Assembly (NCBI GenBank): GCA_960531495.1
Contig: OY482853.1
Coordinates: forward strand, 186,001-250,000
Length of the DNA stretch: 64,000 nucleotides
Direction: 5' to 3'
Source: Zeus faber
Taxonomy: Eukaryota > Chordata > Actinopteri > Zeiformes > Zeidae
This document shows, in pieces, positions 6,418-37,884 of the stretch. The notes beneath the pieces were generated by a model. The model had not been told where the DNA came from, made no database searches, and was given only the letters and a program-made list of their open reading frames with translations. Made by a program: the position numbers and the translations under genes. Position 1 is the stretch's first letter. Each line of letters starts with the position of its first letter.

Positions 6418-6528
6418 CACGAAGGACACTACACCCTAATTGCTCCTGATGGATGCGTCCGTCGGTGTTTGAAAAATTGTAAGTCGCTTTGGATAAAAGC
6501 GTCTGATCAATGTAATGTAATGTAATGA
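6418..6528 (+). mobile_element. 5'-truncated SINE: 3' half with GGATA hairpin tail
   Basis: The 3' part of the tRNA-derived SINE seen complete at 22192-22392: GCTCCTGATGGATGCGTCCG, then CGCTTTGGATAAAAGCG (a hairpin with GGATA loop) and terminal TGTAA repeats. Confidence 0.85.
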
Positions 6529-14173: not shown

Positions 14174-14301
14174 TTATTGAGAGATGGCGTCCTGGTCGTG
14201 GGAGGGATTAAGGTCGACTACAGTCGTTCCTCGCAGAGAAGCTTCTACTGTTCCCTCCGGTGCCAGCGAAGACGAAGGCTGGGAGTTTTTGTTGGATCCC
14301 C
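14174..14301 (-). CDS. lrfn3: lrfn3 coding exon 9: C-terminal tail and stop
   Basis: A TTCTGCTTCCAG acceptor at 14302 is in phase with exon 8. The exon encodes a Ser/Gly-rich stretch, then [18 protein letters not shown] and ends AISQ, stop at 14176-14174. The LRGTTVVDL block resembles the TVVQLD end of mammalian LRFN3. There is no terminal PDZ ligand, in contrast to LRFN1/2/4. This exon is too short to stand out as an open frame; it was found by phase and motif. Confidence 0.75.
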
Positions 14302-17300
14302 CTGGAAGCAGAACAGTGAGGGTTAGAAGGGTAAGGAGGGTTCGGAGAGTTAGGACGGTTCGGAGGGTAAGAGGGGTGAGAAGTGTTAGGAGGGTTAGAA
14401 GGTTAAGGACGATTAGAAAGGTTAGGGGGTTAGGAGGGTTCAGAGATTTAGGAGGTTATGTGGATTAGTAGGGTAAGGAGGGTTCGGAGAAATTGGAGGT
14501 TATGTTCGTTAGGAGGCTTATGAGGGTTCAGAGGTATAGGAGGGTTTGGAGGGTGGGAAGCGTTCGGAGATTTAGGAGGTTTTGTGGGTCAGGAGGGTTA
14601 GAAAAAAAAATAGGGTTAGGAGGGTTAGAAACATTAGGAGGGTTAGGATGTATATAGGATGGTTCGTTGGGTTCGGAGGGTTAAAATGGTTTGAAGAATT
14701 AGGAGGTTATGTTGATTTGGAGGGTTAGGAGGTTCAGAGGTATAGGAGGGTTTAAATAATTAGGAGAGTTACGTGGGGTTCTGTGGTACGTAAAGAGGGT
14801 TAGAAAGATTAGAAGGGTTCAGAGGTATAGGAGGGTTGAGAGAATAAGGAGGTCATGTGGATTAGGATGGTAATGTGGGTTAGGAGGGTTAGAAACATTA
14901 GGAGGGTTCAGAGGGTTATGTGGGTGAGAATGGTCTAGTGATAGAGGATCAAATGGTTCCTTCCTCCGGCTTCACCCTGTTCGATGCCCTCTTCTCTCCA
15001 TTATCCTACCTAGCAAGCAAAAACACGAAGCACGGCAAGCGACCAAACCCCAAGCAACTAACCCAGTGACCAAGTTACTAAACCAGTGACCAAGCAGCAA
15101 CCCAGTAACCTAATAACCAACCCAGTTACCTAGTTACTAACCCAATGACTTAGTCACTAGCCCAGTAACCAAGCGGTAACCTGGTAACCTGGTTACTAAC
15201 CCAGTGACCAAGCGGTAACCCAGTAATCTAGTTATTAACCCAGTGGTCAAGTTATTAACCCAGTGATCTAGTTACAAACCAAGTGACTTAGTTACTAACC
15301 GACTGACCTACTTACTAACACAGTAACCTACTTACTAACTCGGTGACCTACTAACCCATTAACCTAGTTACTCACCCAGTGACCTAGTAAGTAACCCAGT
15401 AACCATCAGTAACCCAGCAACCTAGTTACTAACCCAGTGACCTAGGTACTAACCCAGTAACCTAGTTACTAAGCCAGTGACCTGGTTACTAACCCAGTAA
15501 CCACGTTAGTAACCCAGTGACCTAGTTGCTATTCCAGCGACCTAGTTACTAACCCAGTAACCAAGTTGCTAACCCAGTAACCTAGTAACCAACCTTGTAA
15601 CCTAGTTACTAACCTAGTAACTGACCGCGTAAACAATAGTAACATAGTTACTAAATTAGTAACATAGTTATTAACTTAGTAACTTAGTTATTAACCTAGT
15701 TGTTCCGGTCCCCCCAGTTTGTATTGTGACATCATAGCAGTGTGATGATAGTATGACATCAGAACACAGGCAGATTCACAGTCAGACAGATACTTACGCA
15801 GTCACTCTGATCATGCCTCAGACCCAGGCTAACATCTCTTCCACCAGCCTCACATTGACATTGATCAGACGCTTTTATCCAAAGCGAATTACAATTATTC
15901 AAACACCGACGGACGCAGCCATCAGGAGCAATTAGGGGTTAAGTGTCTTGCTCAAGGACACTACAGCATGCTAGCAGGAGGAGCCTGGGATCCAACCAGC
16001 AACCTTTAGATCACTAGACCACCAGCTCTACTCCTGAGCCTCCAGCCTCATAATGGCCCTTGAGAAAGCACAATCTGAGAGTTAATTAATGTTATTGGTG
16101 TATGCATACAGTGTCAGAGCTAGCACAACGTATTATTTACATCTGCATATTTCTGTACAGTTCCACAGTTTTACACTGCTTCCATTAAAGATACCAAAAG
16201 TGAGCTCCTGTCTCCGGGTACTAATTGAGAGAAGGATTAGCTCGCTGCATAGCCACGTACGACTACACGTGGTGAGGGCAGAAGACTAGTAACATAGTTA
16301 CTAACCTAGTAACCAACCTATCAAGACATAAAGCATGAATGTTTACTGACAAAAATGAGTCCAATAAGAGTAGTCCTGGAAGTGGGCCGGCACTTCCCAG
16401 TACGCAGTACTGGTAGTCAACACTACACAGTACTGGTACTTGCCAGTATGTAGTACCGGTAGTCAATACTACGCAGTACCAGTAGTCAAAGCTACACAGT
16501 GCCGGTAGACACCGGTGCTGGTACGCAGTACCGGTACTCGCCGGCACGCAGTACCGGTAGTCAATGCTACACAGTACCAGTAGTCAACGCTACTAAGTAC
16601 CGAGTCAATGCTATGCACTACCCGTACTCGCCGGTACCCAGTACCAGTAGTCAACGCTACGCAGTACTGGTAGTCAGTGCTACGCAGTACCGGTACTCAC
16701 CGCTATGCAGTACCAGTACTCAACACTACGCAGTACCTGTACTCAACACTATTCAATACTGGTACTTCTACATTTTACTCACTGCGTACCGGGACATTGT
16801 GTCACCAGCACTTCTCTATAATCTATAATATTTTATTGAGTCTGAGCTCACTCTTTCTTGAAATCATTAGAACGCACAAGTTGCGAGCTCCGGCTCCAGG
16901 TTGCCATGACATCATTGACAATATGCGGAGATGGTCGTTGGTAACGGCTGCTGCCCATGCTCCGCTTCAGGTGGATTAGAAACTCCCAAGTTCGGTTCAA
17001 AGCGCAGCATGAGTGATGGTGCATTCCATGGAAACACGAAAACCTGTAATTCCAGTTGGTTGTCCCCATATTAGCATGACATAAAAACTAGTAGTTCAAA
17101 ATGACAGTACACACCTTTTTGTATAAAAATCTATAAAAAAGGAACGTTCACTGTTAATGGTGTACACCACCATGTTGCCGTGACAATGGGTCTGTTATCT
17201 TGGTAAACTCGGTTGCGAGGGATCAGCTCTGAAATTCCAACTTAAATGGCCATTCGTTTCCAATCCAACCTCGTGAAGTGATCAGAATGCAAAAGGACCC

Positions 17301-20300
17301 TTACTATTATCATTTTGAATGTACTGTATTATAAAATAATAAAATTGTCATAAAATGATTGCCCCCTCCGTCAACATGTGAATAAGGGAAGTACAAGCAT
17401 TTTTTTCCACTTCAAGCACAAGAACTAAGTGTTCAGAGGGTTGTCTTTCATCTGCAATAGGGTTAGGGTTAGGGTTGGAGAGTAAATATGTAGACCTCTC
17501 AGTGTCAGGGACGTAGACCTCTCAGGGTTGGAGAGTAAAGATGGAGACCTTTAAGCCAACACTGGTGATCACTATACTAACAGTTGTTATTTTCTGCATG
17601 TTAAGGTAAGCGGCTCTCAGCCATGACACCAGGCAGTCACAGACACGGCAAGGAAGGGACTCCCTGATAAAACACCCAAGTGGTCGCTCAAGGGAACTAC
17701 ATGTGTTGGGTTGAGGTTAGGCTCCCCAGATTAGATTAACCTTCCTGGAACCAACCTCAAGACAACCAATAGGAGAGTGTGAGAACATTAACCCACTAGC
17801 ATTAGAGTTGGGGTTACGGTTACCTGGTGGGTAAAGGTTAGCTGCGAGATCTGCAATTACCTTGGCCTCCACTGGAAGAGGGGGGAGGCAGAGCCAGGAC
17901 GCCTGCTCCACCCCCTCCATTGGTTTGGGAGCAGACATTGGCTTGGCGGGAAGTGGCCTTGGCCTTGTAGTGGTTACTGTGGAGCTTGTACTTCATCAAT
18001 AGGATGAAGATGAAGACGAGAACCGAGGCCACGATGATGCCGCCAATGATGATGATCATCGTCCCGCCCAGGAACTGAAAAAGGAGGTGTGGAAAATGTA
18101 CTCATTATTACTTTTTATTTGTTACTTTTTATACTCCTTTATTACTCGTTTCCTCATTCATTCAGCTCCAACCCTAAGATGCTGGATTTCTTTAGACAGG
18201 AGAATGAACGTGACAGACAGACAGACGGACAGAAAGACAGACAGACAGACAGGCAGACAGGCAGGCAGCCAGACAGACGTACAGACAGAGAGGGAGAGAG
18301 GCAGGCAGACAGGTATCTCTAGCGTTTGCTTTACTGTTGATGGTCATATCAGTTTATGTGTAAATTAGGTTTTAACTCAAACAATTAATGCAAGTTGTTT
18401 GATAGTAAATCTATTACATTAGTCTAATTTTGTTTTGCCTTAATTCTAAAATTAAACAATATAATTGTTGTAATAATTTAATAATATAATAATTCAATTT
18501 TCTCTGAAAACTTTCAACACAAAGTTTCAACAAATTCATCTTTAGAAGCCGAAACTGATTTTATTTTACAGCAAATAATGAGTTGGATATGCTGACCATT
18601 TAATGGAAAGCCAAAAAAATTTGGTTTCATTAAATGTAATTTAAAATGAACTCCCAATCAATAAAACCATTTAAAACTAAAGTAGATTAATTTACATTTT
18701 GCAAAATTTCACATTTCTGTATTGTATACATTTCTGTATACATTTCTGGACTGAAGCCTGAAGCGTTCAAATCTGTTGCCTTTAGTGGTGGAACCCCAAA
18801 CAAGTTTAGCATATAGGGTTAGGGAGATATTATCAGGGAGGTGGGCTCAGCTGAAAACATAAATTTAACTTTTCATATAATTAACATTAATATATATATT
18901 TATATATAACACTTTTTACAAACTTTTCATGGATAATTTTGTCTTCTATTGGCATTATCTTGCCTCTAAAAATGCTTTAAATGCATCGTCTGCAATTTGA
19001 AGAATTTTGAAGGTAATTTATCCATTTTGAATATAGTGGTTTTCCTTTTATTCCCTTTTTTTAATATGAAGCACTTTGAGCTGCATTTGCTGTTTGCAAT
19101 GTGCTGTAGAAATAAAAGGGATTATTATTATGATAAGTAAGCGTGCGCATGCCCGAACGAACCTGGTCCCGGATGGAATGGCAGCGGCCGTACTCTGTTT
19201 CGGTGCTGAAGGTCACGCAGCCCACCAGCCTGGTGCCCGTCAAGGTTGTGACCCCGTCGTCGTAGACAGCGAGCACGCACAGCTCGTAGTCCCGGGCCGC
19301 GGCCAGGTCGCTGAGCAGGAAGTGCTTGTGATTGGCCGGGATCATCCTGAGGGGACCGAGCATGAAATGTTTTAGTGAATTTGAGTCATCACTTTTCTGC
19401 ATTTTGCACTCACAGTCAGAGTGTGACACCATTAAAAATACAGTAAAACACATAAGAATACAGTAAAATACATTAGAACACAGTAAAACACATAAAAACA
19501 CAGTAAAACACACTAGAATACAGTAAAACACATTAGAACACAGTAAAACAGATTAGAACATAGTAAAACACATTAAAACACAATAAAACACATTTTAAAA
19601 CACAGTAAAACAGATTAGAACATAGTAAAACACAATGAAATACAGTGAAACACATTAAAACACAGTAAAACACATTATGACACAGTAAAATACGATGAAA
19701 CACAATAAAACACATTGAAACCGATTAAAACACATTAAACACAGTAAATCTACGAAAACACATTAAAACCCATTAAAATCCATTAAAACACAGTAAAACA
19801 CAATACAACCCATAAAACACATTCAAACAATTTGAAACACAGTAAAACACATTAAAACCCATTAGAACATATTGAAACCCATTGGAACACACAGTAAAAC
19901 CCATTAAATTACAATAAAACACATTAGAACCGATGAGTTGGTGCTATGCTGCTGTGGGGATGTACTGTGGCTGTGGAGATGTACCCCTAGGGGGCTCTGT
20001 GGCTAGGGTTAGATGTCTGCGCAGGCATCGGCAGCAGGGGAGGTGGGGTTATCACTCTGGTGCCCTGCAGCAAGTGCACTCGGCTATGTGGGTGGGCATT
20101 CGGGTCTTGTGACTGGGTGTTGGATCTGGCCAGTTGCTGTATGGGCCTTGCCCTTACATGGGCGCTAGTGGGCATGGGGGGACCGCTGGCAGGGCGGGTT
20201 GGTCTGTCCGTGCCTGGTGTTTGTGGCCCGGGTTCTGTGCCTGCGGCTGCACATGGGGGTGGGTTGTATGTGTGTGCCACAGGGGGCAGGGTCTCTTCCC

Positions 20301-23300
20301 GCTCTCTGGGACTGGTTTATGCCTGTGCTCGGGGCCGGGCGTGGCCATTGCTCTGCGGGCTCCCGGCTTCTCTAGGGGCTGGGGGGTCTTCTGTGGCTGC
20401 AGGACGGGGTGCTCAAGGCTTTCCTATGGTTGTGGATTGTCTGTACGGCTGCAGGACTGGGTGGATTCGGGGCCTTTTCTGCTGCTTAAAGGCTACCATA
20501 TAATACCGACCGTATTCACCAGAAATAGTTGGGACAAGTCCTGTACACTCACCAGTGGACACACACACACACACCCTCCTGGTTAATTCCCTCTCATTTT
20601 CTGCCATAACTATGACAGGAATATACCTGTTGTCGTCTGATGTTCATGTTTCTCCATGTACATGTTGTTTGTTTCTAGGTTTGTGTTTTTCCATGTTCAT
20701 GTTTGTTTCTATGTTTGTTTTTCAGTGTACATTTTGTTTGTTTCTATGATTATGATTTTCCATGTACATGTTGTTCACTCTATGTTTATTTGTCTAACTT
20801 GTGGTGATTCTCCCACTTGGAGTAGTAATGATGATTAGTTGTTTAAAGACAAAAACATGGTAAGATGCTTCTCCAAAGAGGGGGATTGGTGGTGATTGTG
20901 TGTAACAAAAAACTGTGCTCTTGTCATCCCACAGGTCGGCCACAGGACAGAGTTATTACAGCAGTTCTTGATGATTTAAGAATTAATAAAGAGTTGCATT
21001 GCAGGTTGATGGAGAAGTACTCCATTTGCAGACTAACTCTGTCAATGCAATGGAACAAATACTCTGTGTTGTATGTCCAACATGCTGACAGTACATGTTA
21101 AAAAAGTAGAACCCATAGAAACACATTCAAACAGTAAAACACATTAAAACCCATTGAGACACAGTAAAACCCATGAAATTGCATTAGAACAAAGTAAAAC
21201 AAATTAGAACCAATTAAAACACATTAAAACCCAATAAACCACATTCAAATACAGTAAAACCCATTAAAACACAGTAAAACCCATTAAAACAAGTACAACA
21301 CAGAGTAAAATCCAATAAATCCAATCCAATAAAACACAAAATCCAAATCCTTAAAGCCCATTAAAACCAATTGAAATACATTCAAACACAGTAGAACACA
21401 CAGTAAAACCCATTAAAACCCAATCAAAATCATTATAACACATTAAAACCAATTAAAATACATTGAAACACAGTAAAACATGTTAAAATACATTGAAACC
21501 CATAAAAACACAGTTAAAATCATGCTCTTCTTCCGGAGTGGTTTAATGACAGCTGTTATAAATGCTGCAGGAAAAAATACCTGATTGAAGAGAGCCATTT
21601 AAAATGTCTAATAGCTCATGTGCTAGGCACTTAAAAACTGTTTTAAAAAATGTGGCAGGGAGAGTGTCCAGGCAGCAGGTGGAGGACCTGAGCTGACCAA
21701 CCAGTTTTTTTTTTGTCTCAAGGGACAAAGTGAGACATGGCAGCAGTCATATTATTATTACTTTAGAAGCCATTGAAACACATTAAAACACAGTAAAACA
21801 CATTGGAACCTATTGAAACACATTAAAACACAATGAAACACATAAGAACCCATTAATACACAATAAAACACAGTAAAACACATTTGAACCTATTGAAACA
21901 CATTAAAACACATGAAAACACATTAAAAAAAACATAAAAACACATACATGAAAACACACTTAAACACAGTAAAACACAGTAAAACACATTGGAACCTATT
22001 GAAATACATTAAAACACAGTAAAACACATAAGAACCCATTATAACACGTTAAAACACAGTAAAACACATTTCAACCCACTAAAACATATTAAAACACAGT
22101 AAAACACATTACAACCCATTGAAACACATTACAACACAATAAAACCCCTTAGAACCCATTGAAACACATTAAAACAGGGCTGGGGAAGGGGATGGTAGCT
22201 CAGGCGGTAGAGCTGGTGGTCTAGTCATCTAAAGGTTGCTGGTTGGATCCCAGGCTCCTCCTGCTAGCATGCTGTAGTGTCCTTGAGCAAGACACTTAAC
22301 CCCTCATTGCTCCTGATGGCTGCGTCCGTCGCTGTTTGAACAATTGTAAGTCGCTTTGGATAAAAGCGTCTGATCAATGTAATGTAATGTAAAAGCCATT
22401 TGAATCCATTAACACAGTGAACCCAATAAAATACACTGTAAAATCCATTAAAACGTTGAAGAACACATACAGACTCATTAAAACTCAGTAAAAAACATTA
22501 GAAGCTGTTGAAACACAATAGAACACATTAATATACATTGAAACACAGTAAAACACAAATAAAATCAATTTTTATTCTATATATTTTTATTTTATTCTAT
22601 GTAGTATTCAACTTACTGTATTACGTTTTAGGAGTCAGTTAGTCGGTCTATTAGAAATAATTTCCTTTTTTTTCCTCTGACATATTGTGTGTTATCACCG
22701 GGTGCGTTGCATTACATTTCACTGCATATATGTATGAAAGTATGTATATGTATGTGACAAATAAAAATCTTGAATCTTGAAACACATTAAAACCCATTGA
22801 AATACATAACACATTTAAACACATTAGAACCTATTAAAACACATAATAATCAATTAAAATAAATTGAAACACAGTAAAACCCATTAAAATACATTGAAAC
22901 ACAGTAAAATGCAAAAAACTGCATTGAAACACATTAAAACCCATTAAAAGACATGAAACCCCATTGAAATACATTAAAACACATTAGAACCAATGAAAAA
23001 ACATTAGAACCCATTAAATGCATTGGAACACAGTAAAAGACAGTAAAACACACAAAAAAAACATTAAAACACATTACAACCCATTGAAACACAGTTAAAC
23101 ACAGTAAAACACACTATAAAAACATTAAAACACATTACAACCCATTGAAACACAGTAAAACACAGTAAAACACACTAAAAAAACATTAAAACACATTACA
23201 ACACAGTAAAAAATATTATAACACATTAAAAAACATTAACACACAGTAAAACATTTTAGAACCCATTGAGTGAGAAAGTCAGTAAGACTCATCATCCATC

Positions 23301-26300: not shown

Positions 26301-27175
26301 TTTTATAGAAATGTAATTCAGTTCAAGTCAATCAATTGATCCATAAATAAATAATTTAATACATTTTCACTTGTTTGGTTTCGAAATTTCTTGACATATA
26401 GAAATTTTCATTAGTTGCTGTGGTGAACTTAAAAAAACCCACTAGATTTCCCATAATGTGTGGTCAGAATACATCTCTCTACATTCTACTGCATCGTTCA
26501 AGAGCTATTGTTGCCACGTTGAAGCTTGTACTCTCTATTACTGTAGTATTAAATCAGTATTGGCCTATAGAAACCTTGACGGAGGCCTTGAGGATGTCCA
26601 GCGAGCCGTTCTCGTAGCAGACGGTCCTGGAGGTATTGCCCATCAGCTTCCCGTCGGGGCTCACCCAGTGGGTGGATGGCTCTGGGTCCCCCACCGAGCG
26701 GCAGCGCAGACTCACCTCCTGGCCCTCCATCACGAACATCTTGGAGGTGTGGCGCGTGATCATTGGGGGCTCGCACACAAACTCCTCCTGTGGAAGAGGA
26801 CATGGCGAGAGTCTGTCTATCCATCTGACTGTCTGACTGTCTGTCTATCAGTCTCTCTGTCTGACCCTCTGTCTATCTGTCTGGGTCCATCTGTCTGACC
26901 CATTGTCTATCAGTCTGTCTGTCTGTCCATCTGACCCTCTGTCTATTGGTCTGTCTGTATGCCTGTCTGCTTGTCTGACCATCTGTCTGTCTCTCTGTCT
27001 GTCTGTCTGTCTGTCACAGCCATTGTAAGTCGCTTTGGATAAAAGCGTCTGCCAAATGACTAAATGTAAATGTAAATGTAAATCAATCACCAACTCTTCT
27101 ATAACAACAGACCAGCAGTCTCCCATATAGAAAGGTGATTCCCTCCTTTATCCTCCAGTTAGATCAAATCCTGAG

Positions 27176-27222
<47 letters not shown>

Positions 27223-28106
27223 TCGAATGAATTCCACACTGGATGTAAAACCACCTCAGTGTCCACCAATCAGACATCCCAAAATTCATTCCTCGCTCGT
27301 GTTACTGTGCTTTTGTTACTGGCCAGAGTGGGTCGGTGAGTAACAAAAGCACAGTAACAAAACAACAAATCCTGGTTCGATCCGCAGCTCCTCCTGGAAA
27401 GACATTGAAGTGTCCTTGTACAAGACTGTGAACCCCTAACTGTGAGCACCTTGCAAGGCTGCTGCTGCCATCAATGTATGAATGTGTGTGAATGGGTGAA
27501 TGTGAAACACACACTGTGAAGAGATTTGAGTCGTATGACTAGAAAAGCACTATATAATTACACTCCATTTATCATTTAGAAAATATGAATCCAATAAATA
27601 AAAATGATTTCAAGGCTGGACAAGACATTTGCTGCCATTTATTGGTATGCACACTTTTTCAGTCCATTGACACAACCCATATTAGTAAATGAGACCAAGA
27701 AAAGGTTCCAGATGCTTTTCTTGCGTTGGATTTAGTACTAACCAGGGTTAACCAACGCTGACCAGGGATTGCCAGCAGGCCCCTGCAGAGACATTAAGAG
27801 GGGAAGGGTGAGATGGACGCCTGTGATCTGCGCTCTGCTGGGTGCACATTGCGGGCGCACCGAGGATACGTTCCTCATGAATATGCATATCTTTCCCAGA
27901 CAATCCGCTACCTCCATGCCCATTCACCCTTAAATAAAACCTGTGCCTGATAAAAAGGGCACCATGGGGCAAAGGGCCACCCCCCCCCCCCCCCTGCACG
28001 GGCCTGATTACCAGGGCAAGTCAAGGCTAACCAGGCATAGAGAAGAAGAGAAGAGAGAAGAATCTTCAATCGTCACACAGCACGCCACTACAACACATGC
28101 ATTCAT

Positions 28107-28176
<70 letters not shown>

Positions 28177-31100
28177 ACACACACACACATACTCCTTCCT
28201 CTGGAGGGGTAACCAGGGGCAGTGGGCAGCATTCAACGACGCGCCCGGGGACCTGGTTACATACAGTATGTCCGTCGCTGGTCACACGACGGCCCCTAAT
28301 TGGGAGATAACCTGCTGGAGCACGGTGCCAACAGTGCCGCCAACAGGGCTGACCAGGGATAGTCTGGCTGACCAGGGCCTGTACTCCAACCGTGCTGCTC
28401 TTGAATAAAATGTTTTTGTGGTATTTCTCTGGTTTTCCCAGTGGTACAATCCAGTTCATTTCTTTTAGAATGTTTTCAGCTTAGGTGTCAACTCTCTCAG
28501 CACTGGGATGCTTTCATGCATGAATGTGATATTAATATTGTATGAATATAACTGGCCAGGTCTTCAGGTGTGGTGAAGGTCTCTGGATCATCCTTTTTAG
28601 CATGTTAATCCTCTTACAGATATCCTACAACAGCTATCTGCAGGAGGTCCTAAACTCTGTGCCTCTCTGGGGCTTCCTCTCCGAGTTAATACCTTAAATC
28701 CATAATCATGTTAAAGTAGATTTCTACTTCTCATGGAGCTATAGCCCAGTGTGAGATCCTGGTGATTAGATCTGAGACTCTCAGATTAACATGTTGTACA
28801 AATTACTTTCCATTCCATTCCATTGGAATGTGACAACACAGAGCTCAAACAGGCTATCAATAGGTCGTTTTCTTCTCGGTTTTTCCTCAGTGAAACAAGA
28901 TTCAAGTGTCGTTTTTAAGAATGAACACTTGCTTACCTACAACATCAAAACTGCAACTTTACAGCAGCAAACCCATAAAGGACTTATGTGTCCCACCGGA
29001 TGCTGAACCAGATTGTGAAGGTGAACATGAGAGCTGCTGCCCTTTAAGGCCCTTTAAGAGACGGCCCACCTGTTCACTCAAACAAGCATTTATCCCCTTT
29101 CCAATGACTTGACTCATCTGCACTGAGAACATTCTGCTGTGCTCTGTATGTGTTTGCTTTTTGTTTGTTGTACTGCAAATGTATTTGTGCACCATTCTTC
29201 TTTTCCTCCTAGCTACAAATCTTCCCAACAGGATGAATAACGTTAACTGAACTGAACAAACTGAACATAATGGAAGAGTCATCTTCCATTTTCTCTCTTG
29301 GTTCAAAACATTTTTGAGATGTCCAAGCCTTCAAACAAACTAAAACAACATTGGTATATTATTATTATTAAAGTTTCTCCCTGAAACCCATCAAACAGAT
29401 ACCGCAGATACTAGATATATAATGTATTACAAACAACATAGTGATAAATGTTGCTCTTCAGGATACCAACAAACAACAGAACAATCCTTCCTCATGACGA
29501 GAACGCAGAGGTGTTGGATAGTCTACTCCATGATAATACTGTGTCCTGTGTTACTGTCTATCCTGTATTTAAATCTGATGAACATTTAGTCATTTAGCAG
29601 ACGCTTTTATCCAAAGCGACTTACAATTTTTCAAACACCGATGGACGCAGCCATCAGGAGCAATTAGGGGTTAAGTGTCTTGCTCAAGGACACTACAGCA
29701 TGCTAGCAGGAGGAGCCTGGGATCGAACCAGCAACCTTTTTGATTATTGGACGACCAGCTCTACCTCCTGAGCTACCATCCCCGAATGAAGCCACAGGGT
29801 TCTCTCACCTCTCTGATGGTCCAGAAATACTTTCCAGCCAGGTCTTTGGGTGACGCACAGGTTTCCAGGTCATCCTCCCTGGTCAGCCTCCGCAGCCACA
29901 CCAGCTCACAGTTACAGTGTAGAGGGTTCCCCCCGAAGCTCAGGACCAGGGCAGTGAGGGGGGAGCCCTTCATCTTGGCATAGACTGGGATCCTCAGGAA
30001 CAGGGGGTCTGGAGGGATCTTCTTCAGCTTGTTGGAGGTCATGTCCAGTCTGAATAGAACAATATGGAAACTGTTTTGTCATTTCTGCTCCAAGTAGCTT
30101 GCCGTACTTCACTAACTGGCAGATGCTTAGTTTTTGAGTCAGATAATGTTCTGTTGTTGTTGCTCCTACTGAAACATCATATGAATCACTTCTTCTTCTT
30201 CTTATTGCAAAAAGGTTTATGATGGCTCAACTTCTTTTACTTCCACCCATAAATAGATATGGGCAATTAATATGGTTCGAAGTTTGCATTTAAATCTTTG
30301 TGAACACCAGAAATGTAATCCAAAACCATTTACACAACCAATATCAGTGCAAGAGGCATTGTAAAGTTGCTCTCAAAATGTATACAGCTAAATTCTCAAA
30401 CTCTCACAGCTAAATTAAGTGTCAAAATGAAGATGTTTGATTGAGAAAGATAATCCCGTTAATCCAGTAACGTGGCTCAGTTGTCCACACTCCATCTCTC
30501 CGTCTCAGCTCCGCTTCTTCAGAGCCAAGATCAGTGCTAAATGGCCTTTCAACAACCTCCCAGCAGCTTTGTTAGCCACCACCCTGCTCTCTCTCTCTCT
30601 CTTTCTCCCCCTCTCTCTCTCTCTCTCTCTCTCTCTCATTCCTCTTAACTTGCTTTCCATCATTCTGCCTTGATCTTTCTCTTTGACCTTCAACTGTCCC
30701 TCTTTCTCTCTGCTCATCTTTCTGCTGTAAATCTCCTTCTGTTCCTCTCTTTGGGAACAGAACATTCACCAACTATGGTGAAATAACTATGTAAATACAC
30801 ATGATATAGAGAAACATGCAAATAAAGTACACACTGGAAATACTCCTGCCTGTACTGTATATGGGGATATAACAATATATTACTAAATACTGGAATAACT
30901 GTTGAACAAGTTTCATTTTGTAGTTTTTGGTTCTGTCTACCTCTGTTGTTACATGTTTTAACAGTCTGAGTTCTTCCGCCATCTTTCTCTCGACTGTGAT
31001 AAACACTTTGAGATTAAATGTTCTTATTCTAAATGGCATAATGAAATACTGTAATGAGACAAAGCAGAAGCTGTTTGTTTTCTGTTATTCCCACCAGCCG

Positions 31101-34100
31101 CTCCACAACCAACCAGAAGCTGCGATGAATAAATGGGAGTTAATGGCTCTCTGGAGCAGCTCAGCACATGGAAGTTTCTTCTTGGACAGTTTCCAGTGGC
31201 GTTTCCTCTCCAAAGGGAACGCCGCTGGAAACTGGGAGCATCCCAGTAGAACCAAAAAATGATGGTTCCACTGGACGATTCCCAGTAGGACCAGTGGTTG
31301 CGGGGCTCAGACCTGGCCAGCTTGTGCAGGTTGGAGAAAATTCCCTCAGGGACACTCTCAATCAGGTTGTGGTCCAGACTCAAGGTATTGACGCTGACTA
31401 GCAGAGCGATGGTCTCCCATGGGACGTCTACCAGGTTGTTGTAGCTCAGGTCCAGGTCCTCCAGAGTCTCCAGGAAGTCCTTGAGAGAGAGGGGGGTGGG
31501 GGAGGGTGGGGGTGGAGGGGAGGGAAAGGGAGAGAGAGAGAGAGAAAACAAGGGTTAGAGAGTGTTTGATTTAATGGGTGGGAGGGGGGTGTTTAAATAG
31601 TTAGCAGCTGCAGCACTAACGAATGTAGCATCGGCAACAGACAAAATGGGTAACTGACTCTTCTACATCATACAGATGTACATGTTGTTTCCTTGCAGTG
31701 GAATGGTGCATTGTGGGCGTTTTTATTGGAGTGACCCGTGTTTTGCTGTATTTTGGGTCTTTCGGAGCGCATTACCTGGAAGGCGCCTTCAGAGACGCTG
31801 TGCAGCTGGTTGTTGGCTAGGATCAGGTGGCGCAGGTTGACCAGACCCTGGAAGTGGGAGTCGTCCAGTGTGGTGAGGCGGTTAGCGTCCATGTGCAGCG
31901 CGTGAAGATCCTGCAGGTCGGCGAAGGTGTAGGGTCTGATCTGACTGATGGTGTTCCTGCTGAGGGTAAGGTGGATCTGAGGGAGGGGGGGGGTGGGTTC
32001 TTTAGTAAAACAAAACTAGATTTACATGATTTCAACTGATTCTTCAGTCAACATGAAAAGAAAGCAACAGAAAAAAGAGAAGATCACAAAGCTGAAATAT
32101 TCTCATATTCTTTGTGTTTTTGTTAGGACGCATGCGTCCTCGTCTCTGATTGGTCGATGATCTCACGATGCTCTATGACCTGTCCAGGGTGTCAAGGCGC
32201 CGCTGTGTCCTGCAGTGTGCTGCAGCGTCCAATATGTGGTGTAGTGAGATGTCCTGGTTAGGTCTGGGATCTGCATGTCATAATGTGTAATACTGAGTGG
32301 ATTCAGGAGAATGCACTATCAGTGCTGATCACAGAGGAGTTCTGGTATATTTCTGCAGACTTTGTTACATGGTATGGACCCCACTACTACGCCCCCTGGG
32401 GGAGGATGACCTTCATTCATGGTCCAGTTAATAGTTTCAAAGAGAAGAAAAAAATACATTAATTGCATGTTCAATGTGTAGCATGAAATATTTATTACAG
32501 CAAGATTTCATCATTAAATAATAAAAAATAAAATCCAACAATTTACTGACTGTGGTTTGCATTGTTGGGTCTGGTTCCGATGTAAGTTAGATAAAATTAT
32601 ATGAGATAAAATGATATTAGATGTAATGCGATTAGATAAAATTAGATTAATAATAATAATAATAATAATAATAACAATAAAAACAATTATGGCTTTAAAT
32701 TATATAGCGCCTTTCAAGGAACTAGCAGTCTAGTGACTCCGATTTGAGAAGCAGCAACATACATACAGCATCCTACCATGATCTGGAGGATCCACCCCAA
32801 CACATTAACTATGTCTAACATACATGTCTTTTTATTAGATAAGATGAGATAAGATCAAATTTGATACATTTAGATTAGATTGAATAAAACTATATCATAA
32901 AACAAGATAAAATGAGATGAGATGAGACTTCTCCCCTTTTCTACTAATCATCTCTGTAGGGAAATTCAGTCAGTAGAGAAATATACAAAATGCAATGTCA
33001 TTTGTTTGTGGTTGGAACAGAATGGACCAGAATCAAAAACTCAAAAATGTAAAATGAAAGTGACGCTAGAAGCAAACTTTCTGTTGGAGGAGACAGGAAG
33101 TTTCTCAAAGGAAAATTCCTGTCTCCTCCTTTAAGCTGCTAGATGGACAATCTAGAGTATGAAATCACTAGAATCATGAAGAGGAAGAGAGGACTTCCAG
33201 CTTTCCAATGCTCAGTTTGCTTAACACCTGTGTGCAAGTACAGTATTTTACGTATAAGATACTCCAGAGCAGGTTATTACTCAGAATGCACAGACTGCGT
33301 GTTTAACAAATGCACATGACTCCGGGGAAGATGTGGACCTCTGGCCCAGTTCATCAACAGTTGCCATTACATTTAATGATGTTGAAGTGGACCGTGTCCC
33401 ATTTCAGCTGTGCTGCGCTCCTGCAGGGGGCTAGCAGGTTAGCGAGAGTTCACTAAGTCATATGAAGGATGAAGATTCCTCTGGGGGATAAAGGTTCCTC
33501 TGGAGGATGAAGATTCCTCTGGGAGATGAAGGTTCCTCTGGAGGATGAAGATTCCTCTGGAGGATGAAGGTTCCTCTGAAGGATAAAGATTCATCTGGAG
33601 GATGAAGATTCCTCTGGAGGATGAAGGTTCCTCTGGAGGATGAAGATTCCTCTGGAGGATGAAGGTTCCTCTGGAGGATGAAGGTTCCTCTGAAGGATGA
33701 AGGTTCTTCTGGAGGCTGAAGGTTCCTCTGGGGGATGAAGGTTCCTAAGAAGGTTCCAGCAGTGTGGCCTTCATAGAGCTTCCTGTCCCTCACTGGGTGG
33801 GAAACATGAACCTAGTGAATTTCAAGAAAGTGTGACACCGAGCACCTTCAGGGGGTAAGGTGGGTTGTAACCAGAGGATCGCTGTCCCTGACTCCTCCTT
33901 GCAGCACGTCCATGTGTTCAAGTTCAAGTTCAAGTTCAAGAGATTACTTGTCACATACATAGAGCAAGACACTCTAACCCTAACCCGAAGAGTTCATTTA
34001 TGCCTTGATGGCTGCCGCACTCTCTTCCCAGAACACAGAGGAAGGTCTAACAAGCTAAACCTTGTCTGGAAAGATGGACAACTGCTCAGACTGTGACAGG

Positions 34101-37100
34101 GCAGTGGAGAGAAAGAAGAAGAAGAAGAAGAAGAAGGGGGGATGTAGAGTGTAGAGAGTAAGGTAGTTAGCATAGCATAGCACGACTAATGGTGCTTCAT
34201 GTCCTGGAGTCAAAGCAACTCCTCCACAACAACTGTGGGCGACTCAGAGCTTACGGCGTGTTGGTTCCTGAAGGGCTTTCTTCCCCTAGAAGCCATCACA
34301 TCATAAGTGACATAAGAATCAACTTCATACTCAACTGTATTGGGCCCACGGCTTCCACTTGTGACTGTGATGTTTTCAAGTTTCAAGAAGTTTATTTGTC
34401 ACATACATATACATACCGTCATACATATATGCAGTGAAATGTCAATGCAACGCACCCGGGTATTATGCACAATATGTTCTAGACTGAACACAGTAGCTAC
34501 CTAATTTGTACTTGACGAGCTAACTGAAACTAACTGATTCCCTAAACATAATGCAGTAAGTAAATAGAATAATATAGAATAAAATAAAATAAAATAACTC
34601 AAGAAAGTAATACAGCGTGCGGGTACAAAATAGAAATAAAGGGAATAGAATTATGTATATGGAATACGCTATTATGTATAAACTGTATGTATAAAAATAT
34701 GTGCATTAAAGTGGCATGTGAATAAAGTGAGGTAGTGTGTGTGGAGATATACAGCACAGTATACAACAGTACGACACAGCAATACAGTAATACCAAACAG
34801 AACAGCAATACGGCACAGTATGCAGTAACCTCTCCTAAAATCCAAAATCAGCTCCTTAGTTTTGCTGACGTTCTGGAGGAGGCTATTGTCTTGGCACCAG
34901 AGTGACAGGTCAGCCACCTCCTCGCGGTAGGCCTTCTCATCGCAGTCATTGATCAGGCCCACCGCGGCGATGTGGTCAGCAAACTTGATGATGGTGTTGG
35001 AGCTGGACCTGGCCACACAGTCATGTGTGTACAGGGAGTACAGTAGGGGGCTGAGGACGCAGCCCTGGGATGATCCTGTGTTCAGAGTAAGGGAGCTGGA
35101 CATGTGCCTCCCCACCCTCACCACCTGGGGTCTGGCTGTGAGGAAGTCCAGGATCAAGGCACAGGTGGGGACTATGGTATTGAAAGTTGAAGTATAATCG
35201 ATGAACAGCAGTCTCACATAGACCCCCTTCCGGCCATCAAGGTGCGTGAGCGTGGTGTGCAGTACCTGGGAGACTGCGTCATTCCATGGATCTGTTCTGC
35301 TGGTACGAGAACTGCAGCGGGTCCAAGGTGCGGGGGAGGGAGACGCAGATTAAATCCTTAATCAGCCTCTCGAAACACTTCATGAGCACTGAGGTGAGGG
35401 CTACCTGACGGTAGTCATTCAAGCGGGATGGAGAGGCGATCTTCGGCCAGGGAGGCGTTGAATATCGTAGTGAGCAACAGGACTAGCTGGTTAGCAGAGG
35501 TCTTCAGTACTCACCCAGATATGCCATCTGGGCCCGCAGCTTTCCTGGCGTTCACACCCATCAGAGCCCTCCTGACATCATGCTCAGACACTGAGAGTGC
35601 GCGCTCATCCCCAGCAATGTAAACTCCAAATAGCCGGCAAGCTAGCGGTGTTGTTGCCAGAACGAAACCGTGCATAAAAGCAGTTCAGTTCGTTGGCTAG
35701 GGAGGCGTCCACACTTGCGGCTGGGGAGGGGCTGCTGTTGTTGTTGGTAATAGTCCGCAGCCCCTGCCACAAGCGGCTGGTGTACCGTTGCTCCATCTGT
35801 AGCTCCACTGTGTCCCTGTACGTCCGTTTAGCATCCTTCACCGCCGCAGATTGTACGACGCGTCTTTGTAATTGTCCATTTCTCTGGATACAAGACTGTC
35901 GTTGTAAGTGGCCAAGCAAGCATTCAGAGCGCCAGGGATGGGTTTATCAACCTACGGTTTCTGGTTCGGAAATATCCAAACTTTCACTGTGGGAACGATG
36001 CTGTCCACTAACGCAGCTATGAAGCTCACAGCTAATTCCGTAAACTTGCTGACGTCACTGGAACTTGATTGGAACATGTCCCAGGCCTCTGATTGGTCCA
36101 ACCACCAGCTTTACGTCCCTCGTCACTACCGATTCACGCACGATGCGCGGCTTGTAAGCAGGAACCAGCGAAAGTTCTATCTCCCCTGGTGGCACAAGTA
36201 ATTAGAAGAAGAAAACTCTTTACTGATCACACAACACGCCACACTACAACACATGCACACACATACATATGCAGATGCTTTGGATGGTGGTCAGTGAAAT
36301 GTGGCCTCTGCATTTGACCCATCCTGGCTTGTCCTTCCCCCGGGTGGATGGCCAGGAGCAGTGGGGAGCATTCGATGACACGCCCGGGGACCTGGTTCCA
36401 AATGTCCATCACTGGTCAGACGATGATGTGTGCATGTTTTTGGTGGGGGTGCTTACTGATGTTAGATGGAGGAAACCCCATGTGAGCACGGGGAGAACAT
36501 GCAAACTCCACACAGAAAGGCCCCATATTGGGAGATAACCCGCCAGAGCAGGACCAAGGACCTTCTTGCTGTGAGGCAGCAGTGCAATGCACTGTGCCAC
36601 CGTGCCCAAGTAATGTGTTTATAGAAATTAGGCAGAACTTTTTGAAGGTTTGCCTTTTTAAAGTCCCCAGTCACTACCACAGCCGCGTCGGGATGTTCAT
36701 TCTGAAGTCCGGACAACACATCATGCAGGTCTGTTAGTGCTGTGTCGATGTTGCTTGTGGTGGAATATAAACGGCAGTGATGACAACGTGCTTAATTCCC
36801 AGGGGAGGTAGAATGGACAGAATGAGATGGTCAGCTGTTCCAGGTTCGGCGAGCAGGAGTGGGAGAGCGTCTTGGTGTTGTTGGGGTTACACCAAGGACT
36901 CAGGACTCGGCTGGACGTATGGCGTGGTCCAACACCAGCATGTTCAACCGTGTCTCCGTCAGGCAGAGAACGCAACAGTTTCTTGTATTTCGTTGGAATT
37001 TTATCCTCGCTCTAAGGTCATCCATCTTGTTCTCCAGGGACTGGACATTGCAAAGGAGGATGCTTGGCAGAGGTGGACGGTAAGGTTGCGTCCTCACTCT

Positions 37101-37884
37101 GACCCTAATGCTGCAATGTTTGGAGTGGAAGAGTGGCTCCATTGTTGTTGTTGTTGCTTTTGTTGTTAAGATATAAAATCTTGTTAGCATATAAAATCTC
37201 TGGCGGCCAGTCTGGATCCGCGGATATAAATTCCTGAAGTTAATCTTTCAGGGAAATTTTTATATCCATGAGTACATCGCGGCTGGAGGAGACCACTGCC
37301 GTTAAGTTTTTGGTGGACATGGTGATAAAAAACTGAAAAAAATACTAAAATGTGCATAGTCAACAGGGGGCTCGCGTGCAGGCGGCCGCAAGGGGCGGCG
37401 CCACGATTGTGACTTTGTACAATCATCAATGTCTGTGAAGGAGGAATTGTTCAGATCCAGCAACAGAGTTTGCTGGACTGTCAGTTGAAGATTCCTGGTT
37501 ACCGCACCGGTAGTCATAGAAACCTATAATATGTTCCTGGGAACCATTCTATGGCAGACAGAGACAGACAGACAGAAAGACAGACAGACAGACAGCTGAC
37601 AGAAAGACAGACAGGCAGGTGCTCACCAGGCTGGACATGTTGGCAAAGTCTCTGTGTCTCAGCGTGGTGATGAAGTTGTCCATCAGACGCAGCTCGGCCG
37701 TCTGCCTGTCGATGTTGGGAGGGACGAAGAGGAGGCCGGTCTTGGCACAGAGGACGGTGTAGGACGGCAGCAGGTTCTGACACGTGCAGCGCTTGGGACA
37801 CAACATGGAGGAGGAGCAGGGAGGGGGGGACGAGACGAGGAGCAGAAGGAAGACAGGACAGAGGAGCAGGGAGAGGAGGTCCAT
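14174..37884 (-). CDS. lrfn3: Synaptic adhesion-like molecule LRFN3 (LRR-Ig-FN3 type I membrane protein), nine spliced coding exons
   Basis: Joined coding exons (high to low): 37884-37627, 31976-31776, 31479-31313, 30049-29809, 26787-26575, 26250-25940, 19346-19163, 18074-17861, 14301-14174. All introns are GT..AG and phases agree at every junction. The 638-residue product has a signal peptide (about 1-26), LRRNT cysteines 29/33/35/46, LRRs to about 225, LRRCT cysteines 254/256/273/294, an Ig domain (Cys318-Cys367, Trp330), an FN3 domain (about 417-513), one TM helix (about 531-552) and a cytoplasmic tail with CSQTNG. LRFN proteins are neuronal surface molecules that promote neurite growth and synapse formation. 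Family-diagnostic strings [15 protein letters not shown] and [11 protein letters not shown], length close to mammalian LRFN3 (about 628), and a C-terminus without a PDZ-binding motif favour LRFN3 over LRFN1/2/4. The ATG lies in a strong context (GCCGCCATGG). No stop or frameshift interrupts it, so it looks functional. Assignment to LRFN3 rather than an LRFN1-like paralogue is by recalled similarity. Confidence 0.9.
14315..14935. repeat. Telomere-like degenerate minisatellite (GGTTAGGAGG-type) in lrfn3 intron 8
   Basis: Variants of GGGTTAGGAGGGTTCGGAG and AGGAGGTTATGTGGATT recur over 600 bp. It starts 14 bp upstream of exon 9, so the acceptor's pyrimidine region abuts the array. Confidence 0.85.
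15050..15712. repeat. 20-bp minisatellite, TAACCCAGTGACCTAGTTAC unit, in intron 8
   Basis: About 30 imperfect units alternating AACCCAGTAACC and CTAGTTACT. A few related units reappear at 16285-16320, on the other side of the SINE at 15846-16050, suggesting that the SINE and neighbouring unique DNA interrupted the array. Confidence 0.88.
15846..16050 (-). mobile_element. tRNA-derived SINE, near full length
   Basis: In minus orientation it has a tRNA-like head with an A-box region and GGTTGGATCCC B-box, the body TGAGCAAGACACTTAACCCC, and the hairpin tail CGCTTTGGATAAAAGCG. It is the same family as 22192-22392 and 29583-29786. Confidence 0.85.
16385..16778. repeat. Minisatellite with palindromic GTACCGGTA core, intron 8
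   Basis: Imperfect units of about 23 bp (CGCAGTACCGGTAGTCAACG-type) contain the self-complementary TACCGGTA. This could favour hairpins in single strands. Confidence 0.85.
17456..17478. repeat. Short interstitial telomeric tract
   Basis: AGGGTTAGGGTTAGGGTT in G-strand orientation, in intron 8. The rest of 16780-17860 shows no other recognised element. Confidence 0.8.
17861..18074 (-). CDS. lrfn3: lrfn3 coding exon 8: transmembrane helix and proximal cytoplasmic tail
   Basis: The exon starts [20 protein letters not shown], the near-invariant LRFN transmembrane segment, followed by the basic stop-transfer [12 protein letters not shown] and the family tail motif CSQTNG. Donor AAG|GTAATT leaves one base of Gly. 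Reading through this donor would instead stop after a few residues (GNCRSRS), which could be an alternative short end. Confidence 0.88.
18206..18318. repeat. (GACA)n microsatellite with (GGCA) variants, intron 7
   Basis: ACAGACAGACAG runs with GGCAGGCAG interruptions. 18320-19160 is AT-rich intron without recognisable features. Confidence 0.85.
19163..19346 (-). CDS. lrfn3: lrfn3 coding exon 7: second half of FN3
   Basis: The acceptor CCTCAG precedes G-ATG, completing the split Arg codon and giving [11 protein letters not shown]. The FN3 core [14 protein letters not shown] and [11 protein letters not shown] follow, and the exon ends RCHSIRDQ. It is 184 nt long with donor CAG|GTTCGT, phase 0. 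It follows intron 6 (about 6.6 kb), which contains a 42-bp minisatellite and a split A-rich array. Confidence 0.9.
19425..19945. repeat. A-rich minisatellite (ACACATTAAA / ACACAGTAAA), first segment
   Basis: Ten-base units such as ACACAGTAAA and ACACATTAGA repeat through intron 6. The same array continues at 21105-21520, 21765-22190, 22385-22560 and 22785-23265, with transposable elements between, so it was once a single tract of about 2.3 kb. Confidence 0.9.
19980..21104 (+). mobile_element. Unclassified interspersed repeat, copy 1
   Basis: A G-rich 5' part (to about 20480) is followed by TACCGACCGTATTCACCAGA and an AT-richer 3' part ending TTGTATGTCCAACATGCTGACAGTAC in pieces. A second copy lies at 46330-48778 (split by a Tc1 element), and a 3' fragment at 51458-51605 ends in poly(A). 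The shared 3' end and A tail suggest retroposition. It has no coding capacity that I recognise and sits inside the A-rich array. Confidence 0.7.
21105..21520. repeat. A-rich minisatellite, second segment
   Basis: Continuation of the ACACATTAAA/ACCCATTAAA array after the interspersed repeat. It ends at a LINE fragment. Confidence 0.85.
21530..21725 (-). mobile_element. L2-type LINE fragment, N-terminal part of RT
   Basis: The minus strand reads [20 protein letters not shown] and [15 protein letters not shown], matching the conserved block before RT motif 1 in L2-clade LINEs. It ends with a stop and has no flanking RT. Confidence 0.7.
21765..22190. repeat. A-rich minisatellite, third segment
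   Basis: Same units (ACACATTAAAACACAGTAAA and variants), ending at the SINE head at 22192. Confidence 0.85.
22192..22392 (+). mobile_element. Full-length tRNA-derived SINE with GGATA-hairpin tail
   Basis: The head GATGGTAGCTCAGGCGGTAG (A-box) and GGTTGGATCCC (B-box) resemble a tRNA promoter. The body TGAGCAAGACACTTAACCCC follows, then CGCTTTGGATAAAAGCG and TGTAA repeats. The tail hairpin with GGATA loop is the 3' recognition structure known for the eel LINE UnaL2, so this SINE was probably mobilised by that kind of LINE. Confidence 0.9.
22385..22560. repeat. A-rich minisatellite, fourth segment
   Basis: Short continuation of the array between the SINE and a LINE tail. Confidence 0.7.
22678..22786 (+). 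mobile_element. LINE 3' tail with TTGAATC repeats
   Basis: The segment GTTATCACCGGGTGCGTTGC, then CATATATGTATG and GTATGTGACAAATAAA, ending CTTGAATCTTGA, is the reverse complement of the 3' ends of the LINEs at 34372, 53732 and 61642. It is a 5'-truncated insertion. Confidence 0.75.
22785..23265. repeat. A-rich minisatellite, fifth segment
   Basis: Final stretch of the ACACATTAAA-type array. 23266-24040 beyond it shows no recognised element. Confidence 0.85.
24060..24835. repeat. 42-bp minisatellite in lrfn3 intron 6, interrupted by a LINE tail
   Basis: About 17 copies of a 42-bp unit with core CCCCCAGCTTCATCCTCCAT. As 42 is a multiple of three, several frames are open on both strands, giving [14 protein letters not shown] on plus and [14 protein letters not shown] on minus. 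A TTCAAGATT-type tail (24592-24640) splits it into 12 and 5 units. Lies between exons 6 and 7, so not coding. 24840-25935 has no recognised feature apart from a C homopolymer near 24878. Confidence 0.92.
24592..24640 (-). mobile_element. Short retroposon tail with TTCAAGA repeats
   Basis: AGATTCAAGATTTCAAGATT and TTTTTATTGAATCTTGAAAT sit inside the 42-bp array and resemble the 3' termini of the LINEs in this window; also partly self-complementary. Confidence 0.55.
25940..26250 (-). CDS. lrfn3: lrfn3 coding exon 6: rest of Ig domain and start of FN3
   Basis: The 311-nt exon begins [17 protein letters not shown], carrying the second Ig cysteine (residue 367). After a proline/serine linker with [11 protein letters not shown], the FN3 domain runs through ATIRWPPQ and [11 protein letters not shown] to ILIY plus two bases of Arg. 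The donor CAG|GTTTGT has T at +3. NAAGEAT and YNSSTDD are characteristic of LRFN1/3. Confidence 0.92.
26575..26787 (-). CDS. lrfn3: lrfn3 coding exon 5: LRRCT end and first part of Ig domain
   Basis: This 213-nt exon (71 codons) starts [14 protein letters not shown], supplying the last LRRCT cysteine. It continues into the Ig domain with VSLRCR (first Ig cysteine, residue 318), GDPEPSTHW and NGSLDIL. The donor AAG|GTTTCT is weak. The intron cuts the Ig domain between its two disulphide cysteines. Confidence 0.9.
26815..27016. repeat. (CTGT)n degenerate microsatellite, intron 4
   Basis: GTCTGTCTATCTGTCTGACC-like repeats, ending where the SINE tail starts. Confidence 0.85.
27017..27083 (+). 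mobile_element. SINE tail with GGATA hairpin, severely 5'-truncated
   Basis: TTGTAAGTCGCTTTGGATAA, AAGCGTCTGCCAAATGAC, then TGTAAA repeats: only the last 65 bp of an element. Confidence 0.8.
27176..27224. repeat. (TTTC)n microsatellite, intron 4
   Basis: Twelve uninterrupted TTTC units. Confidence 0.95.
27365..27592 (+). mobile_element. Second SINE type (tRNA-derived head, ATATAATTACA tail)
   Basis: It has a B-box-like GGTTCGATCC, TGTCCTTGTACAAGACTGTG, and a tail GACTAGAAAAGCACTATATA. This layout is common in fish SINEs with LINE-derived 3' ends. It is distinct from the GGATA-tail family. 27593-28045 has no recognised element besides a C homopolymer near 27980. Confidence 0.65.
28050..28345 (-). 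mobile_element. Third SINE family, truncated copy with expanded (CA)n
   Basis: Shares GGGGCAGTGGGCAGCATTC-like, GACGCGCCCGGGGACCTGG and GTCCGTCGCTGGTCACAC blocks with copies at 36203-36606 and 46815-47237. An internal short CA stretch of the family has expanded here to (CA)n at 28108-28189. The promoter-side head is missing. Confidence 0.75.
29583..29786 (-). mobile_element. Full-length tRNA-derived SINE next to the exon 4 donor
   Basis: In minus orientation: GGTAGCTCAGGAGGTAGAGC (A-box), GGTTCGATCCC (B-box), TGAGCAAGACACTTAACCCC, CGCTTTGGATAAAAGCG tail. Its 5' end lies about 21 bp from the lrfn3 exon 4 splice donor, in the same orientation as the gene. 28346-29580 and 30060-30590 show no recognised features. 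Confidence 0.9.
29809..30049 (-). CDS. lrfn3: lrfn3 coding exon 4: last LRR and LRR C-terminal cap
   Basis: The 241-nt exon completes the split Arg codon, then reads LDMTSNKL...PPDPLF and the LRRCT block [18 protein letters not shown] with [12 protein letters not shown]. The block [15 protein letters not shown] is the strongest LRFN3-like string in the gene. The donor is GAG|GTGAGA, phase 0. A SINE begins about 21 bp past this donor. Confidence 0.92.
30585..30642. repeat. (CT)n microsatellite, intron 3
   Basis: CTCTCTCTCT tracts with a short CCCC interruption. 30640-31310 has no recognised element. Confidence 0.85.
31313..31479 (-). CDS. lrfn3: lrfn3 coding exon 3: LRRs 5-6
   Basis: This 167-nt exon begins [16 protein letters not shown], an almost invariant LRFN string, and ends HKLA plus two bases of an Arg codon (phase 2). 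[10 protein letters not shown] and VPEGIF resemble LRFN3 more than the other paralogues. The donor CAG|GTCTGA has a pyrimidine at +3 and is weak. Intron 2 is only 296 bp and holds no recognisable element beyond G/C-rich low-complexity sequence. Confidence 0.88.
31776..31976 (-). CDS. lrfn3: lrfn3 coding exon 2: LRRs 2-4
   Basis: This exon is 201 nt (67 codons) and runs from [10 protein letters not shown] to EGAFQ. It contains the highly conserved family strings [17 protein letters not shown] and NNQL. The acceptor follows a C-rich tract (TCCCTCAG|ATC) and the donor is CAG|GTAATG; both are phase 0. Intron 1 upstream (about 5.65 kb) carries a LINE and a SINE. Confidence 0.9.
32650..32680. repeat. 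(AAT)n microsatellite, intron 1
   Basis: TAATAATAATAATAATAATA. Surrounding 31980-33450 intron sequence shows imperfect AGATTAGATAAAAT repetition and otherwise nothing recognisable. Confidence 0.85.
33466..33755. repeat. 19-bp minisatellite (GATTCCTCTGGAGGATGAA), intron 1
   Basis: About 15 units of GATTCCTCTGGAGGATGAA or GGTTCCTCTGGAGGATGAA. Confidence 0.9.
33917..33966 (-). mobile_element. Retroposon tail with TTCAAG repeats
   Basis: TTCAAGTTCAAGTTCAAG then AGATTACTTGTCACATACAT: the reverse complement of the tail at 12893-12938. No body attached. Confidence 0.6.
34672..35217 (-). pseudogene. LINE reverse transcriptase fragment with altered catalytic box
   Basis: Motifs [33 protein letters not shown] and [14 protein letters not shown] correspond to RT motifs A, B and C. 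Motif C has FADH instead of the catalytic F/YADD, and the frame ends soon after [12 protein letters not shown], where sequence jumps to the 3' UTR. Confidence 0.85.
36203..36606 (-). mobile_element. Third SINE family, full-length, with 8-bp target duplication, nested in LINE
   Basis: Flanked by the direct repeat CAAGTAAT (36195-36202 and 36607-36614). The undisrupted LINE at 54755-54785 shows the empty site. Minus orientation: head from GGGCACGGTGGCACAGTGCA, then TGGAGTTTGCATGTTCTCCC, CCATCCACCCGGGGGAAGG and a tail AAGAGTTTTCTTCTTCTA. Related to 28050-28345 and 46815-47237. Confidence 0.92.
37558..37617. repeat. (CAGA)n microsatellite next to exon 1 donor
   Basis: ACAGACAGACAGAAAGACAG repeats start about 10 bp inside intron 1. 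Confidence 0.88.
37627..37884 (-). CDS. lrfn3: lrfn3 coding exon 1: signal peptide, LRRNT and first LRR
   Basis: The exon encodes 86 codons. A leucine-rich hydrophobic leader (residues 10-19 [10 protein letters not shown]) is followed by the LRRNT cysteine cluster CPKRCTCQ and the family motif [11 protein letters not shown], then LRR 1 ending at NMSSL. The donor is CTG|GTGAGC, phase 0. A pyrimidine-rich tract ending in CAG at 37897-37895, just upstream of the ATG, probably marks the acceptor of a 5' UTR intron, so the true exon may begin at 37894 and the promoter lies further upstream, unlocated. Confidence 0.9.

Follow-up and report, generated by a model that had tools for sequence, protein, structure and literature searches.

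An lrfn3-like gene of a ray-finned fish with eight coding introns, of which about seven were probably gained

How did a fish gene resembling mammalian LRFN3 come to contain eight coding introns, whereas one is reported for human LRFN3? According to the part of PMC2094703 that deals with gene structure, most members of the family consist of a 5′-UTR exon, an exon encoding the signal peptide, the LRRs, the Ig domain and part of the FN3 domain, and an exon encoding the rest. Human FIGLER 1 (LRFN3), FIGLER 2 (LRFN2) and FIGLER 8 (LRFN5) are among these, with a single coding intron located in FN3, and FIGLER 3, 5 and 7 are single-exon genes; the statement in the first-pass annotation that mammalian LRFN genes keep LRR and Ig in one large exon is thus borne out in print. 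The same part of the paper describes an intron between LRR and Ig in some chicken and chimpanzee relatives, and gives Tetraodon proteins for FIGLER 2, 3, 8 and 9 and none for LRFN3.

The gene lies in a window of 64,000 nt (the whole stretch of DNA that was analysed), which contains no N bases, and it occupies 37884 to 14174 of the minus strand, a span of 23.7 kb. Exon reconstruction yielded nine coding exons in order, just as had been annotated, with GT–AG borders at all eight introns and mutually consistent phases; the spliced coding sequence of 1917 nt specifies 638 residues and a stop, and has no internal stops. In gene order, the features are as follows, where 'extra' means additional to the human LRFN3 layout as given in that part of PMC2094703.

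37627..37884, minus strand: coding exon 1, 258 nt; signal peptide, LRRNT and first LRR, by alignment to LRFNs
31977..37626, minus strand: intron 1, phase 0, 5650 nt; extra; contains a reverse-transcriptase-like fragment
31776..31976, minus strand: coding exon 2, 201 nt, phase 0-0; LRRs, by alignment
31480..31775, minus strand: intron 2, phase 0, 296 nt; extra
31313..31479, minus strand: coding exon 3, 167 nt; LRRs, by alignment
30050..31312, minus strand: intron 3, phase 2, 1263 nt; extra
29809..30049, minus strand: coding exon 4, 241 nt; final LRR and the greater part of LRRCT, by alignment
26788..29808, minus strand: intron 4, phase 0, 3021 nt; extra; SINE inside
26575..26787, minus strand: coding exon 5, 213 nt, phase 0-0; final LRRCT cysteine and beginning of Ig, by Pfam and alignment
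26251..26574, minus strand: intron 5, phase 0, 324 nt; extra; inside the Ig domain
25940..26250, minus strand: coding exon 6, 311 nt; remainder of Ig and beginning of FN3, by Pfam and alignment
19347..25939, minus strand: intron 6, phase 2, 6593 nt; inside FN3; candidate old intron common to mammals
19163..19346, minus strand: coding exon 7, 184 nt; remainder of FN3, by Pfam
18075..19162, minus strand: intron 7, phase 0, 1088 nt; extra; between FN3 and the membrane span
17861..18074, minus strand: coding exon 8, 214 nt; membrane span and cytoplasmic tail, by comparison with a provisional LRFN3 sequence
14302..17860, minus strand: intron 8, phase 1, 3559 nt; extra; in the cytoplasmic tail
14174..14301, minus strand: coding exon 9, 128 nt coding; C-terminus lacking a PDZ-binding motif; the weakest exon

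The splicing of the LRR–Ig region is well supported, both by the domains and by the alignment to LRFN1, which has no gaps at junctions 1–5 (its gaps fall elsewhere, in exons 4 and 5); in the LRFN5 alignment, one single-residue gap occurs at the fourth residue past junction 2. Less firm is the placing of junctions 7 and 8 and of exon 9, which relies on splice signals, frame and the provisional LRFN3 sequence. Outside GT, the donors of introns 3 (GTCTGA) and 5 (GTTTCT) agree with the consensus at only four of seven positions, and the pyrimidine tract at the acceptor of intron 5 is weak (0.54). The start ATG at 37884 is preceded, 10 nt upstream, by ttcag, a possible 3′ splice site, as if a 5′-UTR exon were located beyond it, and no AATAAA or ATTAAA is present within 1.9 kb 3′ of the exon 9 stop. 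If intron 8 were retained, the frame would end after seven codons (GNCRSRS; 17838–17860), giving a possible shorter tail.

The predicted protein combines LRRs, one Ig domain, one FN3 domain and a single membrane span, the domain content of the LRFN/SALM family. Pfam matches were obtained for LRR_8 (6.5e-38), I-set (4.3e-16) and fn3 (2.9e-8), the last covering residues 421–496 and spanning junction 6, and the membrane span was read by eye at about residues 526–552. The best sequence matches, over residues ~28–390, were LRFN5 (522.6 bits) and LRFN1 (520.8 bits), followed by a further LRFN-type chain, 6tl8 (353.9 bits); the next protein reached only 185.5, placing LRFN members far above other LRR–Ig proteins. 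Identity across the LRR–Ig region was 0.641 to LRFN1, 0.625 to LRFN5, 0.625 to a provisional LRFN3 sequence and 0.576 to a provisional LRFN4 sequence, values that do not separate the paralogues. Past the Ig domain, 120 of 221 aligned positions were identical to the provisional human LRFN3 and 83 of 218 to the provisional LRFN4, in a comparison confined to these two; the alignments as a whole covered LRFN1, LRFN3, LRFN4 and LRFN5. The LRFN3 and LRFN4 sequences used are presumably accurate; their lengths, 628 and 635, equal the published ones, which supports these versions without proving them. Of the LRFN3-like identity proposed at first pass, the LRFN part is upheld by the domains and by matches above 520 bits, and the lrfn3 part is probable: the gene is an LRFN family member, for which lrfn3 (SALM4) serves as a lead, a name that depends on the provisional LRFN3 and LRFN4 sequences.

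The order LRRNT–LRR–LRRCT–Ig–FN3–TM–tail is that of LRFN3/SALM4, and the C-terminus, DAISQ, likewise has no PDZ-binding motif, provided that exon 9 is correct; SALM4 and SALM5 are described as lacking this motif in the part of PMC8481232 used here. From its sequence, we infer that the gene is a functional lrfn3 of ray-finned fish encoding a type I synaptic adhesion protein with a short tail and an unchanged domain architecture. Mouse SALM4 is reported in the same part of PMC8481232 to bind other SALMs in cis and to inhibit them, and by analogy the fish protein might have a cis-inhibitory role. A single-protein search, which reaches close relatives only, returned two peptide-pattern stretches in viral contigs and seven in genome contigs, none of them confirmed.

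Compared with the published human LRFN3 layout, as a comparison of descriptions and not of bases, seven of the eight introns (1–5, 7 and 8) have no counterpart, and intron 6, within FN3, may be the old intron shared with mammals. The annotation had singled out five introns; introns 1–5 are indeed spread from the LRRs into the Ig domain, but the count was low, as introns 7 and 8 are also extra. Intron 4 could be older, given the LRR/Ig intron described for some chicken and chimpanzee relatives.

In modular LRR genes there is one intron per repeat, and among shuffled Ig and FN3 modules the domain-border introns are of phase 1. Here, introns 1, 2 and 3 lie at distances of 3, 60 and 8 nt from the beginning of the respective repeat. 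Introns 4 and 5, unlike such border introns, are both of phase 0: intron 4 falls before the final cysteine of LRRCT (294), and intron 5 between the two Ig cysteines (318 and 367). Since their LRR registers are unequal and they are of two phases, introns 1–3 are not modular introns of the one-per-repeat kind. The uneven registers, the intron inside the Ig fold and the few-intron paralogues described in print make gain the simpler account, and it is the most economical reading, its direction and age being drawn from one species. The fish lineage, named at first pass, is a candidate setting for it.

The exon sequences at the junctions lean towards a proto-splice-like consensus. MAG|R occurs, as annotated, at junctions 2, 3, 5, 6 and 8, that is at five of eight junctions and three of the first five, compared with 41 of 1913 coding positions; junctions 1 (CTG|A), 4 (GAG|G) and 7 (CAG|T) depart from it. 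The enrichment that had been put forward in favour of gain is real, but as an argument it is weak and not diagnostic, because exon ends at any splice site lean to the same consensus. MAG|R enrichment was accordingly rejected as proof of insertion. No direct, inverted or terminal inverted repeats beyond chance were found at the junctions; the donor and acceptor flanks of the same intron agreed on average at 7.4 of 20 positions, compared with 6.8 (s.d. 1.9) in mixed pairs, with the highest value, 11 of 20, in intron 5. In the absence of a junction repeat beyond chance, the insertion mechanism has left no direct trace.

Within the introns, intron 4 contains an internal tRNA-headed SINE with a UnaL2 tail at 29584–29783, whose start lies ~25 nt into the intron from the donor, and, on the opposite strand at 27012–27065, a second UnaL2 tail. 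Copies in introns 6 and 8, and one at ~6.4 kb, are 91.6–92.7% alike to this SINE. Intron 1 contains an RVT_1 fragment (E 4.4e-6, below the gathering score); this fragment and the intron 4 SINE look like later arrivals. Introns 2, 3, 5 and 7 have no repeat in common with the rest of the 64-kb window at cut-offs of at least 60 nt, at least 70% and a partner more than 1 kb away.

On the reading that we consider probable, the ancestral gene would have had one coding intron, inside FN3 and probably corresponding to intron 6 here. About seven spliceosomal introns would then have been gained, splitting both a 1.4-kb exon that ran from the signal peptide into the beginning of FN3 and the 3′ portion of the coding region, and leaving exons of 128–311 nt. 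Insertion would most likely have occurred at AG|N-like sites, new introns would have been kept where exon size suited exon definition, and transposons would have landed in the introns afterwards.

Other accounts have to be weighed against this one. Some or all of the introns could be old, present in an early vertebrate lrfn3 or in the LRR–Ig family, and have disappeared on the way to tetrapods, for instance by way of a reverse-transcribed copy. Some relatives have LRR and Ig on separate exons, which fits such a history, but the one-intron layout common to most paralogues in the described part of PMC2094703 would then demand repeated losses, or gain followed by loss in one; moreover, loss by reverse transcription would be expected to remove the FN3 intron too, and the unequal LRR registers also speak against it, so that we consider old introns unlikely. 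It is highly improbable that the exon model is wrong, the locus misassembled or a pseudogene, and an intact LRR–Ig exon located elsewhere in the species: the weak donors of introns 3 and 5 could be read that way, but the gene has its nine exons in order on one strand, free of N and stops, with GT–AG throughout and LRFN1 ungapped at the LRR–Ig junctions, and a pseudogene is unlikely to hold all eight junctions in frame.

A further alternative is that the introns were made by transposons that carry splice sites, either Introner-like or terminal-inverted-repeat elements. Introns 3 and 5 of notothenioid slc26a2 are transposon-like sequence in the part of PMC12357937 cited here, transposon pieces occur in introns 1, 4, 6 and 8 of the fish gene, and old scars could have decayed. 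In the 64-kb window, however, no target-site duplication, terminal inverted repeat or copy reaching the splice sites was found; the flank identities barely differ from those of mixed pairs, introns 2, 3, 5 and 7 have no repeat partner elsewhere in the window at the cut-offs above, and the SINE of intron 4 is internal. For vertebrates, the relevant part of PMC9860276 describes no pattern of gain by Introners. An origin from such elements is unlikely.

The exons are more even in length than chance would have them. For exons 1–6, random cuts reached the same evenness in 0.22% of draws as judged by the smallest exon and in 0.11% as judged by the s.d., and in 0.31% and 0.23%, respectively, when cuts were confined to AG|R sites; for all nine exons the corresponding values were 0.07% and 0.01%, or 0.14% and 0.013% with cuts confined to AG|R, all for a statistic picked post hoc, after the exons had been seen. 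Even exons fit an exon-definition filter, and such a filter may apply to genes with established introns in general. A stronger proposal, which we put forward as speculative and rather unlikely, is that the seven gains owe their regular spacing to exon-definition selection and not to site availability, with skippable exons 2 and 5 opening the way to new SALM4 isoforms. If so, skipping these symmetric exons would keep the frame and could yield SALM4 with a shortened LRR region or a broken Ig domain, a route to isoforms that is closed to mammals.

Vertebrate genes seldom gain introns, and the mechanism by which they do so is not settled. For other intron-poor fish genes such gains have been published, so that the lrfn3-like gene is probably one more example; the comparisons that follow draw on parts of the papers concerned. 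The slc26a1 gene gained five introns in Eurypterygii (PMC12357937), and slc26a1/slc26a2 resemble the present gene as intron-poor genes with several gains in ray-finned fish, including Eurypterygii-age introns with little sequence homology among species, although the gain was placed there with 81 vertebrates, compared with one species here. MC2R/MC5R gained introns mostly at MAG|R-like sites (PMC3151243), and the serpins of ray-finned fish likewise gained introns (PMC2746811); with both, the fish gene shares GT–AG borders, mostly proto-splice-like flanks, mostly phase 0 and several introns per gene. Complex repeats are lacking in the serpin introns and in the MC introns of pufferfish, although some occur in the MC introns of medaka and of stickleback (UnaL2 in the latter). 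The authors of both papers link the gains to compacted genomes, whereas the lrfn3-like gene is large and repeat-rich, and this link, set beside a 23.7-kb gene in a window that is one-quarter tandem repeat, counts against the gain explanation. Teleost CHRM4a, a coding region otherwise without introns, acquired six, one of them not fully seen in stickleback (PMC6298421); the multiple gains are alike, but CHRM4a is a receptor gene with introns at other positions, and several species were compared. RAG1, the precedent named at first pass, is indeed in print as an exon uninterrupted elsewhere with one or two introns in ray-finned fish (PMC2803162), fewer than in the lrfn3-like gene. A literature search over titles and abstract openings found no paper on fish lrfn3 gene structure, and the part of PMC3933685 considered contains nothing on introns of the lrfn3-like gene. 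A gene with about seven gains at regular spacing would be an extra marker for dating the teleost burst, and would be useful for testing whether exon size limits intron retention.

Some observations concern the repeats in and around the gene. Copies of the tRNA-headed, UnaL2-tailed SINE at 15859–16047, 22188–22379, 29591–29783 and 6425–6512 are 91.6–94.4% alike in the listed pairs, and three of them are inside introns of the lrfn3-like gene; a SINE with a UnaL2 tail is in keeping with a teleost. Ten chosen open frames compared with Pfam, in the search for other genes, gave three matches, all transposon-like (RVT_1 below the gathering score), and seven gave none; the pieces at 46853–47458 and 47755–48186 on the minus strand are Tc1-type transposase-like (DDE_3 and HTH_Tnp_Tc3_2 matches). 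Tandem repeats make up 25% of positions 1–64000 and 42–44% of introns 6 and 8, and intron 6 holds 10-bp AAACACATTA-type arrays. In intron 8, a degenerate 9-bp array at 14318–14918, GAGGGTTAG on the plus strand, comes within ~16 nt of the acceptor of exon 9; its units, read along the gene, are CTAACCCTC, so that branch-point-like CTAAC motifs recur along the end of the intron.
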